Source: Undibacterium hunanense
Lineage (GTDB): Bacteria > Pseudomonadota > Gammaproteobacteria > Burkholderiales > Burkholderiaceae_D
Assembly (NCBI RefSeq): GCF_014284335.1
Contig: NZ_JACOGF010000008.1
Span: forward strand, 62,001 to 126,000
Direction of reading: 5' to 3'
Length of the DNA: 64,000 bases
Below are positions 3,282-9,410 of the stretch, piece by piece (the stretch's first letter is position 1; each line of letters begins with the position of its first letter). The notes under the pieces were generated by a model. That model searched no databases, was not told the DNA's origin, and saw only the letters and a list, made by a program, of their open reading frames with translations. The position numbers and the translations under genes are program-made.

Positions 3282-3302
3282 CTATTCAGGGCAACATCAG
3301 GC

Positions 3303-3361
3303 GGCCTGTGACAGGCCGGAACGACAAAAGGCAGACATGTCCAACATGCCTGCCTTTTTTA
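3303..3361 (+). terminator. Perfect hairpin followed by a rho-independent terminator
   Basis: GGCCTGTgACAGGCC (3303-3317) is a perfect hairpin. It is followed by an AAAGGCAG..CTGCCTTTTTT stem-loop with a T run (3327-3361). It ends the plus-strand transcript and separates it from the minus-strand gene that ends at 3378. Confidence 0.85.
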
Positions 3362-3377
3362 AGTCCAGCAAAAAAAC

Positions 3378-3776
3378 TTAGTTCGTTTTGGTAACGTCTT
3401 TGCTTTGACGCTTGCCTGCAGCAGTTGCTGGCAGGAATTTCATCGGGTCATTGACGCCTGCCGCATAGGCAGTCACCATGCTGCGCTGCCTGAGGCAGGA
3501 AGCGCTCAGTACGGCTGCATCCGGTGCAGAGTTGCTGCAGACTTGCAAGTCCTTGACGGTATCCAGAGGAATACCCGCAGCAGCCGCTACGGAAACGATG
3601 GATTGTGGATTGGCGCCGCTGGCAACCAGGCTGTCTACCGTTGCCTGCAGATTGGAACTGCTGGTCAGCGCAGTGAAGATACCGTCGACAGAAGTGTCCA
3701 CGCCTTCAGCACAGGCAACTGACAAACCACCGGCCAAAGCCAGACCAATAAGTGTGTTCTTAAGCATTTTTTTCAT
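3378..3776 (-). CDS. Small secreted protein of unknown function
   Basis: The 132-residue product starts MKKMLKNTLIGLALAGGLS and has a signal peptide with a likely signal-peptidase-I site after ACA near residue 25. The mature part is Ala/Ser/Val-rich with two cysteines (VCSNS and SCLRQ) that could form a disulfide. I chose the ATG at 3776 because a GGGGGA purine run lies just upstream; an in-frame ATG at 3791 would precede it. I see no known domain. It lies downstream of the borosin-like methyltransferase on the same strand, but about 190 bp away, so a link is not shown. Confidence 0.75.
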   Translation of the reverse strand: MKKMLKNTLIGLALAGGLSVACAEGVDTSVDGIFTALTSSSNLQATVDSLVASGANPQSIVSVAAAAGIPLDTVKDLQVCSNSAPDAAVLSASCLRQRSMVTAYAAGVNDPMKFLPATAAGKRQSKDVTKTN

Positions 3777-3966
3777 AGTATCCCCCAACATGTCGACAAA
3801 CCATTTTGTCTTCCGCAGCCAATTCTAAATAAGAGCAAATCAAATTGAAAGCGCTTATTTGTAACCTGGAAAGTATTTTTAAATGAAATTTGTTAAATCA
3901 TTTACGAAAATTTCCATGTGGCAATAAAACACAATGAAAAACAATAAAACCTTGTCTCTTCTACTA

Positions 3967-4794
3967 TCAGGCTACCTGCTGGGCGAGATTTCTTTGTGCC
4001 GCCAATGCGTTCAACTGATCAATCACGGCCTGGTCTTTTTCCATCGTTTTTGCCGGTGGTATCACCAGGGTCGTGACTTGCCGGAAAGCGGCGTTTGGCA
4101 AATCGCGCATCAACAGTTTTTCCTTGCGCGTTTTTTCCATCGGATCGGTGGCGGCCTCATACAGTATCACTTCATGATCGAGCGGGTAGCTGCGGCTGAG
4201 TTTGTCCACCACGATCTGCAAGTGTGCAGGCTCAGTGTCAAAACGTTTCAGGCTCAGATCGCCGGCTATGCCTATCTGCCATAAGATCAGCAGTGCCGTC
4301 GGGTCTATCTGCTTTTGATAAATCATGAACTGCGTGCTTTCCATGGATTGCATGCCACTGTTGGCAGGGTCTATACCCAGGTCTGCCACCAGGCAATCCA
4401 GTGCCGAGATGCCTGGCTCCATGTGCGCGTCAAAACCTTCGGCACGTGCATCGGCTATCGCCATATGCGAGATGCAGGCAAAAATGCCGGGGTGACCATA
4501 AAAGGCTGCACACACTTTCTTACCGGCCCTGACTTCTTTCAGGATGGTATCGGCCATGCGACGATAGGTATCACGACGGGTCTTGCCGTCCACTTTAGTA
4601 TCGTCATAATGATCGTTGAGGCAGACATATTCTTTGGCAACACCTTGTAGCCATTTACGGGTAAAGACGTTCGGTATCGCTGCAATCACGATATCAAAAG
4701 TTTCAATATAACTTTGCGCAATGGGCGTCAGTTGCCCTCCCATACGCATGCCGGTACCTACACAGACCAGTGAACCTTGAGTTTGATTTGTCAT
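3967..4794 (-). CDS. Borosin-type SAM-dependent peptide alpha-N-methyltransferase homologue
   Basis: The 275-residue protein has the tetrapyrrole-methylase-like fold. GSLVCVGTGMRMGGQLTPIA near residues 7-26 is the SAM-side loop, and FYGHPGIF lies at about 98-105. Borosin methyltransferases N-methylate backbone amides of a precursor peptide using conserved Tyr/Arg residues; here Y63, R73/R74 and Y77 lie in the matching segment (DHYDD, KTRRDTY). Unlike fungal OphA-type enzymes, no core peptide is fused at the C-terminus, so this would be a split type acting on a separate precursor. Candidate precursors lie just upstream (4936-5210) and at 7255-7464. The start ATG overlaps an upstream stop in an ATGA arrangement. 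The family call is by pattern recognition and has not been tested by search. Confidence 0.82.
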   Translation of the reverse strand: MTNQTQGSLVCVGTGMRMGGQLTPIAQSYIETFDIVIAAIPNVFTRKWLQGVAKEYVCLNDHYDDTKVDGKTRRDTYRRMADTILKEVRAGKKVCAAFYGHPGIFACISHMAIADARAEGFDAHMEPGISALDCLVADLGIDPANSGMQSMESTQFMIYQKQIDPTALLILWQIGIAGDLSLKRFDTEPAHLQIVVDKLSRSYPLDHEVILYEAATDPMEKTRKEKLLMRDLPNAAFRQVTTLVIPPAKTMEKDQAVIDQLNALAAQRNLAQQVA

Positions 4795-4914
4795 AGACTT
4801 TTCAATAAATTAACTTTAAAGAGTGCAGCATATTGGATTTGGCCCATGAGCGAAGCAAGCAGTGTTGTCTCGCTCATTTTTTTGACTATTTCCCGCACAT
4901 TTATTTTGCAGTGA

Positions 4915-4949
4915 GAGAAAACAACAAAACCATCATCAGGCAATGATGG
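4915..4949 (-). terminator. Terminator at the 3' end of the second precursor frame
   Basis: On the minus strand CCATCAT-TGCCTG-ATGATGG forms a 7-bp stem followed by TTTTGTTGTTTT. The stem overlaps the stop codon of the restored precursor frame (4936-4938), which supports that frame as the original gene end. Readthrough would be needed for the methyltransferase gene downstream. Confidence 0.6.
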
Positions 4950-5210
4950 CTTCTTCTTCAAAACGCATACTGCTACCAACCAGATCGAACGGCGCTTCTG
5001 TTGTATCGAGTGAATCGAAGCCCTTGAAGGGGATATCGAGGAAAGCAGAAATTTTTTCCTGCCCTGCATCAACAAGACCGCCTGCTCGTCAACCGATAAA
5101 CCAAAATCGTGGGTCGCCTGGTACGGATCCTGTTTATTTGCATGAATCAGGTCAGCATTTGCATCCAAGAACCTGTTTGCGATCTTACTGCGCGTGTGTG
5201 ATCGTGGCAC
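4936..5210 (-). pseudogene. Second borosin-precursor-like gene, broken by a one-base frameshift
   Basis: From GTG at 5210 the frame reads NRFLDANADLIHANKQDPYQ, then DFGLSVDEQAVLLMQG. This matches the intact precursor at 7255-7464 (DPNAAMADFGLTPEEQTAVLSG). The frame is then lost at ATGCAGGGCAGGAAAA near 5058. Inserting one base restores QEKISAFLDIPFKGFDSLDT and a C-terminal tail ending RFEEEAIIA at a TGA (4936-4938), about 91 residues in all. The unshifted frame instead runs on to 4791 as a basic, non-homologous tail that happens to overlap the methyltransferase start (ATGA). A natural mutation, programmed shifting or a sequence error are all possible. The 5' end is uncertain because no ribosome-binding site precedes the GTG. 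Confidence 0.65.
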
Positions 5211-5468
5211 ATGTGCTGCTAAAAATGCTCATGCAATGTAGTACATTCCGCTTTTTGTGCTGCGCTTAGTTACTCTTATCACGCTGACCCACGCTCGCTA
5301 CAGATCGTAAGCAGATTCTAGACGTTCAAAAAATCCAAGAGCCTGGAGATACGATTTTCCTTGATGATCAAAACATGTTGGCAGTATGGTCATCAAGGAT
5401 TTTATGCCACTTTTTTAAGCAACAAAAAACTTATTTTTACATTTTTTAACGATTTGAATTGCAAAAAA
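5211..5468. other. Non-coding gap between the diguanylate cyclase and the second precursor
   Basis: I see no gene here. A 9-bp inverted repeat (CCTTGATGA at 5359-5367 and TCATCAAGG at 5390-5398) lies about 70 bp after the diguanylate cyclase stop and could be a processing or termination structure. The rest is AT-rich and probably carries the promoter of the downstream minus-strand genes. Confidence 0.4.
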
Positions 5469-7220
5469 CTATCGATACACTGTCACACAGTTACGCCCTT
5501 CGGCCTTGGAGTTATACAAAGCCTTGTCTGCTGCTTCCAGCGTGGCGTCAAAACTTGTCAAGCCGTTACTATCTACGGTGGCAACACCAAAACTGGCTGA
5601 CAATGGAAAACGATAACCGCTAGGCTCGGTATCGATCATGGCGATAGCCATACGACAACGCTCTGCCAGTTGCAAGGCCGAAGACTGATTTGAATCCGGC
5701 ATGCAAATACCGAATTCTTCACCACCCAGACGTCCGAACAAATCTTCTTTGCGCAAATGGGTCTTGATGGTTTCACAGACATTCTTCAATACCCAGTCGC
5801 CAGTAGCGTGACCAAAAGAATCATTAATATTTTTAAACAAATCCATGTCAAACAGAATGATGCTCATGCTGCCGGTACGCATTTTGAAGGCATCATTTGA
5901 TGATGTCATGAAATGCATGCGATTCGCAGCCTGGGTCAAACCGTCTGTCTGTGAGAATTCGCGGAACTGGTTTTTCTGTTGCAGGGTCTTGATCAGCCAC
6001 AAGACCACCAACACCATGATGATGACGACAAGAATGATGACCAGCCATAAATTCTGGTTACTTTTCTTTTCCAGCTCGCGCTCAACAGCCAGGATTTTAT
6101 TTTTCTGTTCCAGCAGGCTCAGTTGATTGGCTTTATCCTGGCTATCAAATTTAACGCGCTGGTATGAAAGATTTTTATGTAGCTGATCGTCCAGTACCCG
6201 ATTTTTCAAGGCAAGTGCCGTTTCATAATACTCTAGCGCCCCGGCAAACTGCCCCTGTGCGCGCTTGACATTGGCCATGGTCTCAGCAGTTTTTTCCATG
6301 ATCTGTACGGCATTGCCTGACTTGGCGTGCTGATAGGCTTGCAGTCCGTAGCGCTCAGCCTGTTCAAGATTGCCGGTATGCAGAAACGCGCGCGCCATCG
6401 CCTCTTCCAGCATGGTCAGGTAATCCGAGCTTTGCGTGGTTTTGGAAAACTCAGTCAACAGCGCAAGCCCAGCACCTTTACCCTGCTGGTAATTACCCGA
6501 ATCAATGAGATCTATGCAGGCCAGCGTCTGCAACAACAGAGCGAAAAACTTCCGCCCTTGCGATTCACACAATGAGATAGCGTCTGGCAATAGTGATCTT
6601 GCCTTTTGTCGCTCACCTTTGAGGAAATTGATTTCCACCAGATCTCCCATGCCAACGCATCTCGAGCTACTTCTCTCGACATCAACGTCCAGTGCCAACA
6701 TCCGCTCGGCATAGACCAATGCTTCGTCATAGGCACGCAGGGAATTCAGTAAAGTGATTGCGGCCTGAAGAGTATCGACCTTGGCGATCTGATTAGTTAA
6801 TTTAGGAAGTAATATGATGCTTTCATTGATGGCCTTCAATGCTTTCTCATATTCGCCCAGGCTGGTGTAGCCGGAAGACAATTGATAAAGAAACCGGACG
6901 CGGTAATCCGGGTCTTTGACAAAACTCAAACGCGACTCCACCAGTTCGACACGCTCTTTGTGACGCCCCTTATAGCCGTACGCCGAAGCAGAAAGCAAGT
7001 AGAAGCGATTTCTTTGTGCGTCGCTAAACGTTGGCTCCAACTCGCTTAAACGAGTCATCGTAGTAGATACGATATCAGGCGCGCTTCTGATTTCTTGCCC
7101 CATCTGTGACAGCATTCCATCAACAGTGTCTGCTTCGCGTGCGGATAATTGCACACTTGCGCAAAGTCCAATAACAAGCAAAATGGCCGTGAAAAAATTT
7201 AGTTTCAAGCCTGAAATCAT
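5469..7220 (-). CDS. TPR-containing membrane diguanylate cyclase (GGDEF)
   Basis: The 583-residue protein has an N-terminal signal or anchor (residues 8-27), a periplasmic helical repeat region of TPR type (about 60-380, for example YTSLGEYEKALKAINESI), a coiled coil, one membrane helix (about 391-411) and a cytoplasmic GGDEF domain (about 420-583). The active site is intact: FDMDLFKNINDSFGH and GGEEF at 499-503. An RxxD inhibitory site lies at 490-493, so it should make c-di-GMP from two GTP with product feedback. It starts 34 bp after the stop of the precursor-like gene, suggesting co-transcription. The signal sensed by the TPR part is unknown. Confidence 0.93.
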   Translation of the reverse strand: MISGLKLNFFTAILLVIGLCASVQLSAREADTVDGMLSQMGQEIRSAPDIVSTTMTRLSELEPTFSDAQRNRFYLLSASAYGYKGRHKERVELVESRLSFVKDPDYRVRFLYQLSSGYTSLGEYEKALKAINESIILLPKLTNQIAKVDTLQAAITLLNSLRAYDEALVYAERMLALDVDVERSSSRCVGMGDLVEINFLKGERQKARSLLPDAISLCESQGRKFFALLLQTLACIDLIDSGNYQQGKGAGLALLTEFSKTTQSSDYLTMLEEAMARAFLHTGNLEQAERYGLQAYQHAKSGNAVQIMEKTAETMANVKRAQGQFAGALEYYETALALKNRVLDDQLHKNLSYQRVKFDSQDKANQLSLLEQKNKILAVERELEKKSNQNLWLVIILVVIIMVLVVLWLIKTLQQKNQFREFSQTDGLTQAANRMHFMTSSNDAFKMRTGSMSIILFDMDLFKNINDSFGHATGDWVLKNVCETIKTHLRKEDLFGRLGGEEFGICMPDSNQSSALQLAERCRMAIAMIDTEPSGYRFPLSASFGVATVDSNGLTSFDATLEAADKALYNSKAEGRNCVTVYR

Positions 7221-7254
7221 CGCTTATACCGGGAAAGTTATCGCAGCTACGTTA

Positions 7255-7464
7255 TTAATATTCAATTGAATCAAGAGCAGGAAGGTCTTCAGCAGAAATT
7301 CCCAGCAATCCAGCAACCGCTTCTTTGTCACCAGACAAAACAGCTGTTTGCTCTTCAGGAGTCAGGCCAAAATCGGCCATGGCAGCGTTAGGATCGCTTC
7401 TGTGGGCCGCCAGCGCAGCGCTATCTTTATCCAGTGTATTCAAGTACTCAAGCAGTTTAGACAT
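7255..7464 (-). CDS. Split-borosin precursor-like peptide
   Basis: The 69-residue acidic peptide (MSKLLEYLNTLDKDSAALAA, then DPNAAMADFGLTPEEQTAVL) has the helical leader layout of split-borosin precursors such as Shewanella SonA, where a conserved DP..AM..GLT.EE..AV..GD block binds the methyltransferase. The last 15 or so residues (SAEDLPALDSIEY) would be the core. There is a good ribosome-binding site (GGAAGGTGA) before the ATG at 7464. The gene heads a minus-strand series: this peptide, the diguanylate cyclase, the second broken precursor, the methyltransferase. Whether this core is methylated is inference; a stand-alone helical regulator is the alternative. Confidence 0.72.
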   Translation of the reverse strand: MSKLLEYLNTLDKDSAALAAHRSDPNAAMADFGLTPEEQTAVLSGDKEAVAGLLGISAEDLPALDSIEY

Positions 7465-7565
7465 GTTGATTCACCTTCCATTTAACTTCGTGGGTTAAGA
7501 AACGAGAGACATACTGATGAAGATTCTATTATGATTCTGTAAAAGTTGTAACAAATTTCAAGCAT

Positions 7566-9284
7566 TTACGCCATCAGGCGCAACACGGGATAACGCCGCC
7601 ATTCAGGTTCATGGAAGCGCTGGCAACGTTGAAAAATAAAATCCAGCACCGCTTCCTGTTTGTCGAGCAAGGCAGGGTTGGCTAGTTTCCACTCTTCAAA
7701 TGCCTGTTTTACCTCGGGTTCGGTGGCAAGAATCTCGCTGGCAGTGTCTTCAAATACATAGTCAGAATAAGCTTCCTTCTTTTCCAGCACACTGTTGAAA
7801 AATCCCCAGCGGAAGAAACTGTCATGCGCCTGCGGTTCCAGGGTTTCGACTATGTAACGGGCTTTGTCCTGATCCAGTGGCACCACATAATCACCTGCAT
7901 ACGCTGCCATATTCAGTGACACTGCCTGCAATTGCACGTCATCATGGAACAGATGGCCTTCATAGGCATGAGGGCGTGATGTAACAGAAAGTATCTGGTA
8001 CACCTCGGCCTGCAGGCTGCTATCTTCTTCCAGTCTGTGCATCTGCACGCCATTCCATTGCAGTCGTTCGATCACGGCACGCCAAGCTTGCGGTATCAGA
8101 TAGGCTTTTGCCTGCTGCACTCGGATGTCGGCAACGAAACGGTCATAATAGGCTATCGGTTTTTCCCAGGGCTGGCTGCGGTCATACGCCAGACGCTGGT
8201 AATTACCTAATATACTGGGTGTATATACGGCCTTGTAACCCTTGAATAAAAATTGCGAAGGCTGGTTGTGATCGATCACCCAGTGGACCGCCACCTGTTG
8301 CGGCTGGCTGGCAGCCTGACGCGCCTTCGCGCGCAGGTCCTGTATCTGCGCTGCATTGGCGACAGTAAAGGACAGCACGCTTTCCACCAGTGCACGCATG
8401 GATGCATAACGGTCGGCAAAGGGTTTCAGCATATGGGTTTCTGGCATGAAACTGATGGTGTGATGCAGAGCGGCATAGCCGGTCGAAAAGCGCGGTGTTT
8501 CCAGGAAATCTTCTATGCCATGATCTGGGCTGTCCTTGACCGGATTCACATACGGGCACGTGGGCCAGCCACGCTGTTGCATGTCGGCATAAATGGCTGG
8601 CAGCATGGTATCGCGCAAGAATGGCCCCAAACCATAGCCCAGCTTGTCGGCCTGGGTTTGTATCAGGGTCATGGTGTAATGATAGTCGGCACCATTCGAG
8701 GTATGGGTATCGACCATGACATCCGGACTCCATTCACTGAAGAAGCGGTTGAATACCTGGGCGTTTTCACTATCGCATTTGATGAAATCACGGTTCAGAT
8801 CCAGGTGCAGACTATTGCCGCGAAAGCCGAATTGTTCCGGCCCATCCTGGTTCACTCGGGATGTATTCTGGCGATTCAGACTGCCATCGACGTTATATAC
8901 CGGCACAAACAGAAAAACTGTCTGCCCCAGTGCTGCCAGGCGTTCTGGCTGGGTGCAAAAATCACGCACCAGAGCCATGCAGGCATCAATGCCTTCCGGT
9001 TCGCCCGGATGGATGCCATTGTTATTGAAAAACACCGAACGCTGTTGCTGCCGGATATGCTCACGGTCAAACACCCCGTCGGCAGTCACCACACCGGCAT
9101 GAATGGGACGGCCGCTATCCGATACCCCGATTTGCGAAAACTGCAGCACAGCAGGAAACTGCGCCGCCAGACCTTGATAAAACGCGATGCAGTCTTCCCA
9201 GCTTGTGGTCTGGTTTCGGTTGCCGGCTTCATAGGGTGTAAGAAAACTGGCAGGACTACTGGCATTCACTGACGGAGATGACAT
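7566..9284 (-). CDS. M14-family zinc carboxypeptidase-like metallopeptidase
   Basis: The 572-residue protein has the M14 zinc motif HPGE (H92, E95), then LDLNRDF near 161-167 and DTHTSNG with the third zinc ligand H194. The N-terminal 270 residues are the peptidase domain; the remaining 300 are a family-specific extension. No signal peptide is evident, so a cytoplasmic location is likely. It may act on peptides or amino-acid conjugates; the substrate is unknown. It is divergent from the lyase gene that starts at 9411. Confidence 0.88.
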   Translation of the reverse strand: MSSPSVNASSPASFLTPYEAGNRNQTTSWEDCIAFYQGLAAQFPAVLQFSQIGVSDSGRPIHAGVVTADGVFDREHIRQQQRSVFFNNNGIHPGEPEGIDACMALVRDFCTQPERLAALGQTVFLFVPVYNVDGSLNRQNTSRVNQDGPEQFGFRGNSLHLDLNRDFIKCDSENAQVFNRFFSEWSPDVMVDTHTSNGADYHYTMTLIQTQADKLGYGLGPFLRDTMLPAIYADMQQRGWPTCPYVNPVKDSPDHGIEDFLETPRFSTGYAALHHTISFMPETHMLKPFADRYASMRALVESVLSFTVANAAQIQDLRAKARQAASQPQQVAVHWVIDHNQPSQFLFKGYKAVYTPSILGNYQRLAYDRSQPWEKPIAYYDRFVADIRVQQAKAYLIPQAWRAVIERLQWNGVQMHRLEEDSSLQAEVYQILSVTSRPHAYEGHLFHDDVQLQAVSLNMAAYAGDYVVPLDQDKARYIVETLEPQAHDSFFRWGFFNSVLEKKEAYSDYVFEDTASEILATEPEVKQAFEEWKLANPALLDKQEAVLDFIFQRCQRFHEPEWRRYPVLRLMA

Positions 9285-9410
9285 AGGTTCGATAAACTCT
9301 TAAATAGTTGATGCGCGAGATTTTATCTCACAAGTAGGCTAACTGGCATGGCATACTCATGTTGGATTGAAACAATTTGCATCATGTAATGGATTGCCGG
9401 AGAACCCACC

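Follow-up and report, generated by a model that had tools for sequence, protein, structure and literature searches.

A 64,000-nucleotide stretch of the Undibacterium hunanense genome (RefSeq assembly GCF_014284335.1, 6.28 Mb in 108 contigs; contig NZ_JACOGF010000008.1, positions 62,001 to 126,000), referred to here as the window, carries on its minus strand what sequence comparison identifies as a type-IV-like split-borosin cassette. Borosins are backbone N-methylated peptides belonging to the ribosomally synthesized and posttranslationally modified peptides (RiPPs). In the order of the minus strand, its parts are an intact precursor (P1), a 583-residue sensor protein, the remains of a second precursor (P2), and the enzyme. 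The gap between P1 and the sensor frame is 34 nucleotides, and the sensor frame is separated from the enzyme by 674 nucleotides. In window coordinates, these features are as follows.

7255 to 7464, minus strand: P1, intact SonA-like borosin precursor, 69 residues (open frame, SonA match, precursor model, AlphaFold)

5469 to 7220, minus strand: predicted TPR/transmembrane/GGDEF diguanylate cyclase, 583 residues (Pfam, hydropathy, motifs, Cys pair, linkage)

4936 to 5192 (approximate), minus strand: P2, decayed second precursor (frame inspection, DNA alignment with five intact relatives)

3967 to 4794, minus strand: SonM-type backbone (alpha-N) methyltransferase by homology, 275 residues (PDB SonM match, active-site residues)

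A preliminary description of this DNA had proposed a split-borosin-like locus on the basis of a 69-residue peptide with a borosin-like leader pattern and a 275-residue methyltransferase with RRDTY and YGHPG motifs. Both open frames are present as reported, and the assignment to the borosin class holds with the matches to SonM and SonA. The description had overlooked the TPR-GGDEF gene, the 583-residue open frame between the two peptides, which is the most informative part of the locus.

When the enzyme frame (3967 to 4794) was searched against the structures in PDB, the top match was SonM of Shewanella oneidensis (structures include PDB 7LTC), with an E value of 1.2e-82 over enzyme residues 7 to 261 and 51% identity over 255 residues, followed by the fungal dbOphM, OphA, and MroMA. 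The active-site and lock residues of SonM discussed in PMC8429565 (Y58, R67, Y71, Y93, F99, and W166) align with Y63, R73, Y77, Y99, F105, and W172 of the window enzyme; all six are invariant across 10 aligned enzymes, and the RRDTY and YGHPG motifs sit at SonM-equivalent active-site positions. The frame stands alone, unfused to the precursor. Pfam assigned it only to the broad TP_methylase family (PF00590, 77 bits), as would be expected if the enzyme were a tetrapyrrole methylase or another PF00590 enzyme and the small frames were unrelated to it. We regard this explanation as scarcely credible, and a tetrapyrrole methylase identity was rejected: of the NCBIfam CobI, CobJ, CobM, and YabN models listed, the best reached 47.3 bits against a cut-off of 525 and the others 16 to 21 bits against cut-offs of 163 to 391, and the SonM match is nearly full-length with the catalytic residues kept. 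The grouping with tetrapyrrole methylases, which the preliminary description had named as the outcome that would speak against its proposal, was therefore not found. By homology, the enzyme is a SonM-type backbone N-methyltransferase, and methylation of P1 is predicted from the SonM/SonA system.

Residues 1 to 58 of P1 match SonA in PDB at an E value of 1e-4. The AlphaFold model of P1, built on a 16-row alignment (mean predicted local distance difference test score, 83.6), places helices at residues 3 to 13, 15 to 23, 25 to 32, 36 to 44, and 47 to 54, with an additional short one at 63 to 67. Residues 1 to 53 of SonA form a five-helix borosin-binding domain, and SonM binds the SonA leader (PMC8429565); in the model, the leader of P1 (about residues 1 to 54) closely resembles that domain. 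Given the E values of the matches to SonM and SonA and their recurrence across genomes of the same genus, the enzyme and P1 are not chance resemblances. The C-terminal core is short, varies between species, and ends in PALDSIEY. In 25 betaproteobacterial cassettes, the mean identity is 0.23 for the core, 0.61 for the leader, and 0.75 for the enzyme. In a gap-free numbering, A63 and D65 of P1 fall at the methylated positions L63 and I65 of SonA; the acidic site is atypical.

The 583-residue sensor scored 129.5 bits against the Pfam GGDEF model (cut-off, 23.8) and 38.5 bits against TPR_2. It carries a GGEEF motif and an RxxD I-site and is expected from its sequence to make cyclic di-GMP (c-di-GMP). 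The TPR region is probably periplasmic, since the hydropathy profile has an N-terminal hydrophobic segment and a strong membrane segment ahead of the GGDEF domain. A pair of cysteines (C188 and C218) is conserved. In the named loci, which are the best 80 of 573 confirmed enzyme loci and overlap the same-genus set, 97 of 97 TPR-GGDEF frames have such a pair ahead of the GGDEF domain; the spacing is 30 in 88 frames, 29 in five, 31 in three, and 28 in one, and the pair is invariant among 34 aligned sensors. It is missing from two control TPR-GGDEF proteins (L281 and L282), which have no precursor or enzyme in the 9 to 10 kb fetched, and from three of the four TPR histidine kinases that adjoin precursors, the fourth being that of L070. 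A search of the window genome with the sensor alignment gave 49 matches at E ≤ 1e-20. Among the matches listed, the window gene was the sole strong full-length one (E value, 3e-251), and the next TPR-GGDEF protein (G000:C12) stood at 2.5e-53. In a genome with two enzyme loci (G1099), the three strongest full-length sensor matches fall at those loci; in one without the enzyme (G041), none of the matches listed spans the TPR part of the sensor.

The three genes occur together within the genus. Across 43 same-genus genomes, the enzyme was found in 19, a precursor in 19 (by model), and the cyclase at E ≤ 1e-60 in 18; enzyme and P1 each recur in 18 genomes besides that of the window, 17 of them common to both. 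At this threshold, the cyclase is present in 18 of the 19 enzyme-bearing genomes versus none of the 24 enzyme-free ones (Fisher P = 3e-11). In G033 the contig ends inside the enzyme and neither precursor nor cyclase was found, and in G025, which has a precursor without enzyme or cyclase, the contig ends 420 nucleotides past the precursor. Six enzyme-free genomes were inspected around the M14 carboxypeptidase gene that lies beside the cassette in the window. In two of them (L234 and L235), this gene is about 160 nucleotides from the genes that flank the other side of the cassette in the window, so that the cassette is cleanly absent; the other four regions are rearranged or have longer gaps. 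A decaying cassette was also seen in the genus (L042:5367-7070, genome G015), with a precursor lacking its start, a sensor in two frames, and an open enzyme frame.

The precursor, TPR, and GGDEF models applied beyond the genus were derived from loci of the present study and miss precursors unlike those, as at L182. The TPR call often rests on a study-built model: Pfam detects no TPR in L179 or L081 and only sub-threshold TPR in L182 and in the second sensor of L099. In a phylum-wide draw of 398 genomes, 17 enzyme loci were found in 15 genomes, and a TPR sensor adjoins the enzyme in 16 of them, the window counted; its output domain is GGDEF in 13 and a hybrid histidine kinase in three (L181, L183, and L071). 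Two of the 17 loci depend on the study-built model for the TPR part: L179, where precursor and sensor lie on the strand opposite the enzyme, and L182, where a small frame between enzyme and sensor was not recognized as a precursor. The single sensor-free locus, L184, has a 1,177-residue frame at 38% identity. Among the named loci, a TPR gene lies on the strand of the enzyme in 79 of 80, in 77 of these with GGDEF; at L092 and L101 the TPR frame runs to the contig end. The locus of SonM itself belongs to this pattern. Genome G1191 encodes SonM at 100% identity over 254 residues, and its locus (L280) has the order SonM, SonA, and, directly after SonA, a 596-residue TPR-GGDEF frame. Aligned with the window sensor from near the first residue, this frame shows 26% identity across 587 columns.

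The association has a phylogenetic limit. In a family draw, the enzyme was found in 28 of 392 genomes, 19 of the genus and nine others; three of the others, at 67 to 75% identity (L064 to L066), carry the cassette, two at 34 to 39% (L067 and L068) have no TPR sensor, and four more at 34 to 35% were left out. In a class draw, nine of 369 genomes match, that of the window included; of the other eight, three (G758, G679, and G739) have a TPR sensor, and the models found none at L072 to L076 (31 to 38% identity). Pfam searches of 20 neighboring frames of at least 350 residues at L067, L068, L072 to L076, L184, and L091 returned no TPR-GGDEF or TPR-kinase protein; L074 has a TPR protein without an output domain about 4 kb away. 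Since the examined enzymes at 31 to 39% identity lack such a sensor, the tie to the sensor belongs to one part of the enzyme family.

Within that part, the precursor and the sensor behave as a pair. At least one recognizable precursor is present in 79 of the 80 named loci. The frame that follows a precursor was a TPR-GGDEF frame in 83 of 97 cases, a TPR-only frame in two, the enzyme in six, another precursor in four, and nothing in two (L092 and L154, where the sensor frame, taken from stop to stop, already starts before the precursor). Conversely, 83 of the 97 TPR-GGDEF frames have a precursor as the previous recognized frame. This adjacency is observed in both gene orders: most gammaproteobacterial loci have the order methyltransferase-precursor-sensor, and the betaproteobacterial ones, together with L100, L180, and L070, have the order precursor-sensor-methyltransferase. 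By parsimony on an enzyme tree of 70 rows, from which 35 loci were randomly omitted and which carries a long-branch warning for L070 and L180, the order changed at least twice, and the precursor stays ahead of the sensor throughout. Copy number changes as well. Two or three precursor-sensor pairs are present in seven of the 80 named loci (L084, L105, L123, L131, L137, L143, and L152); in six of these, the pairs lie beside one enzyme, and in L123 the enzyme is doubled too. The second sensor of L143 is divided over two frames. The output domain also switches between GGDEF and histidine kinase while the TPR region and the precursor persist.

The TPR hybrid histidine kinases that adjoin precursors lie at L070:7477-10793, L181:7918-11916, L183:199-4499, and L071:6778-11128 and have HisKA, HATPase, and receiver domains, with Hpt in two cases; at L070, the single enzyme has sensors of both kinds around it. 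At another locus, L091:6889-14337, the upstream neighbor is a divergently oriented GAF-GGDEF-EAL gene, and the downstream one, on the other strand, encodes a Cache-HAMP hybrid histidine kinase.

The second precursor of the window is a decayed pseudogene. P2 is in pieces, with the leader in one frame and the C-terminal half in another, and only a weak match to the precursor model was obtained there (G000:C97:67001-67174). In five same-genus loci (L027, L028, L029, L030, and L034), the second precursor is an open frame, located between the sensor and the enzyme. A DNA alignment with these intact relatives shows that P2 no longer has a start codon and that two breaks interrupt its reading frame, one close to its beginning and the other at a short run of A. 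A missing start codon and two breaks point to gene decay instead of a single sequencing slip, and a programmed frameshift is disfavored because the start codon is also gone and the relatives have an uninterrupted frame. The view of the preliminary description that two precursors beside one enzyme would be uncommon does not stand: one of the two is a pseudogene, and at least two precursors are present in 16 of the 80 named loci.

A third precursor-like frame lies elsewhere in the window genome, far from the cassette (L045:6144-6410; contig C17, 104188-104385). It is 48% identical to P1, has a core ending DSIEIFPNPNPV, and is flanked by a DUF4214 gene on one side and an alpha/beta hydrolase gene on the other; neither enzyme nor sensor had a match in the 13 kb fetched around it. 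Among 69 precursor-sensor pairs from L092 to L156, 44 have a cysteine in the aligned core region, often in a VVCxxxPAE-like context, and these cores carry a long acidic tail; SonA and P1 differ in this respect.

The conserved logic of the cassette, in which precursor, TPR sensor, and enzyme are kept together, points to peptide signaling through c-di-GMP. We propose that the paired TPR sensor recognizes the methylated peptide as its ligand and that c-di-GMP levels are set in this way, a reading whose chances we judge to be evenly balanced. The enzyme would dock onto the five-helix leader of P1 and N-methylate backbone amides in the short C-terminal core, as SonM and SonA suggest. A protease would then free the core from the leader, and the freed core would reach the periplasm, where the sensor whose gene immediately follows that of the precursor would bind it through its TPR domain. 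Binding would change c-di-GMP synthesis by the cytoplasmic GGDEF domain. Methylation, processing, export, binding, and the direction of the c-di-GMP response are steps that we infer. The argument for a ligand and its receptor is that the adjacency of precursor and sensor survives changes in gene order, output domain, and copy number. That a TPR domain can gate a fused cyclase has a precedent in RcbB of Vibrio vulnificus, a TPR-GGDEF protein whose TPR domain represses the cyclase and whose same-operon partner, RcbA, de-represses it (PMC12282931).

Covariation between the core and the TPR region gives suggestive support only. In the 25 betaproteobacterial cassettes, a set that omits the broken or cut cassettes L042, L044, and L046, the core tracks the TPR region when the enzyme is controlled for (partial r = 0.53; P = 0.0002) and when the GGDEF domain is (r = 0.39; P = 0.0004), and given the TPR region it tracks neither the enzyme (r = −0.05) nor the GGDEF domain (r = 0.07). 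Among the 44 Cys-core pairs within L092 to L156, the correlation of core and TPR region given the enzyme is r = 0.21 (P = 0.004), and by ranks it is 0.16 (P = 0.05). The leader also tracks the TPR region given the enzyme, at r = 0.44 in the 25 cassettes and 0.47 in the 69-pair set, and given both a host gene and the enzyme at r = 0.55 in the Undibacterium rows; plain linkage could produce such a signal.

A number of results weigh against the ligand-receptor proposal. In the full set of 69 pairs from L092 to L156, core and TPR region do not correlate significantly given the enzyme (r = 0.07; P = 0.09), and the core tracks the enzyme (r = 0.26) and the GGDEF domain (r = 0.36) given the TPR region; with this failure in the larger set, we reject core-TPR coevolution as proof. 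The signal in 15 Undibacterium rows, measured against a host-gene clock, is r = 0.66 but weak by ranks (rank r = 0.32, P = 0.02), and its rank correlation falls to 0.21 (P = 0.12) when one row is left out. Partial Mantel tests are lenient on related sequences, and the precursor and the TPR end of the sensor are adjacent on the DNA. Adjacency itself has exceptions: L091 has a precursor and an enzyme and no TPR sensor, 14 of the 97 sensors lack a precursor as the previous recognized frame (at L154 from the stop-to-stop overlap only), and P2-type precursors precede the enzyme, not the sensor. P1 has no evident signal peptide that would bring it to a periplasmic TPR domain, and no exporter or protease was recognized within the cassette. 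In the RcbA/RcbB precedent the partner is not a peptide; RcbA is a TPR protein, no RiPP precursor is involved, and the words methyltransferase and precursor are absent from the main text of PMC12282931. Finally, linkage alone would fit a regulator of the pathway equally well.

That last possibility is the main rival, which we consider rather unlikely. Here the TPR-GGDEF protein would answer some other envelope cue, and c-di-GMP would regulate how a borosin that acts outside the cell, for example, as an antimicrobial, is produced or released. Tight linkage is what this model predicts too, and the cores, with their mean identity of 0.23, vary strongly between species, as do those of antimicrobial RiPPs; the tracking of the enzyme and the GGDEF domain more than of the TPR region in the 69-pair set also agrees with it. 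It leaves unexplained why the precursor lies directly ahead of most sensors in both gene orders, why precursor-sensor pairs are multiplied beside one enzyme, and why the sensor can be a histidine kinase instead, and a Pfam scan of nine window proteins recognized no immunity or export gene.

An improbable variant holds that the precursor is a protein partner, so that the TPR protein binds the methylated precursor in its entirety, or else its leader domain, and no peptide is freed. The leader tracks the TPR region as well, and RcbA is an example of a protein that de-represses a TPR-GGDEF enzyme (PMC12282931). Against this, the leader has no evident signal peptide whereas the TPR region appears to be periplasmic, and the leader of SonA is bound by SonM (PMC8429565). 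Slightly less probable still is that an old split-borosin pathway and a TPR sensor are ordinary operon neighbors, co-inherited with no functional tie. Conserved operons can persist by descent, and the examined enzymes at 31 to 39% identity have no TPR sensor nearby, yet the association survives order changes, output swaps, duplication of pairs, and presence or absence as a unit.

Other split borosins (types V to X) likewise have enzyme and precursor encoded separately, as in the window. The pairing of a peptide gene with a neighboring TPR protein as its would-be reader also recalls the RRNPP receptors of Gram-positive bacteria (Rap, NprR, and PlcR), which are cytoplasmic TPR proteins that read re-imported, unmodified peptides. 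The window sensor differs from these in that a membrane segment connects its TPR region to a GGDEF domain, or to a histidine kinase in relatives, and hydropathy gives it two hydrophobic segments, unlike a cytoplasmic TPR protein with no membrane segment. Among the closest known systems, SonM/SonA (PMC8429565) shares the catalytic residues of the enzyme, the separate five-helix precursor of about 70 residues, and the adjacent TPR-GGDEF gene. In contrast to it, the window has the order precursor-sensor-enzyme instead of enzyme-precursor-sensor, a PALDSIEY core unlike that of SonA, a decayed second precursor, and an enzyme in another clade of the tree. The locus is a genuine addition to the type-IV-like split borosins.

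As for earlier reports of the linkage, the words GGDEF, cyclase, TPR, and operon are absent from the main text of PMC8429565. PMC11395268 was the one paper found that has both borosins and GGDEF. Its Figure 1 deals with borosin architectures, and the legend lists GGDEF among the labels of the cluster drawing; it gives no function, TPR sensor, or pairing rule. A GGDEF neighbor or domain of some borosin type has, by that legend, already been drawn, and we do not claim the linkage as such to be new. Literature searches turned up neither the precursor-sensor pairing nor the histidine kinase variants nor the receptor idea, and they returned no paper joining borosins with a diguanylate cyclase or backbone N-methylated RiPPs with c-di-GMP signaling, and none on a periplasmic TPR-GGDEF protein with a peptide pheromone.

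Two further genes adjoin the cassette.

3378 to 3791, minus strand: small protein in no Pfam family, its start resembling a signal peptide

7566 to 9284, minus strand: M14 zinc carboxypeptidase-like protein (Pfam M14, 47.7 bits)

The small protein adjoins the cassette in many Undibacterium loci, and a relative of it was found in three of the six inspected same-genus regions without a cassette; it is probably a neighbor and not a cassette member. The M14 gene was present in all eight enzyme-free genomes of the genus that were tested, and the 15 to 16 kb at L039 and L041 gave no M14 match, which disfavors the peptidase as a maturation protease; it, too, is probably a chromosomal neighbor and not a cassette member. 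An Rfam scan of positions 3300 to 9400 gave no matches, and promoter and terminator scans of the locus were close to chance level.

If the peptide is the ligand of the TPR cyclase, this would give bacterial borosins a role and c-di-GMP signaling a class of gene-encoded ligands. S. oneidensis MR-1 is well suited to testing this, as the genes for all three proteins lie side by side there and the structure of the enzyme with its precursor has been solved. More tentatively, and with somewhat less confidence than in the proposal for the window itself, N-methylated ribosomal peptides may form a Gram-negative signal family, each with a dedicated TPR membrane receptor with GGDEF or kinase output; one methyltransferase may mature several such pairs, and SonA, the first split borosin known, may be the signal for the cyclase encoded behind it.

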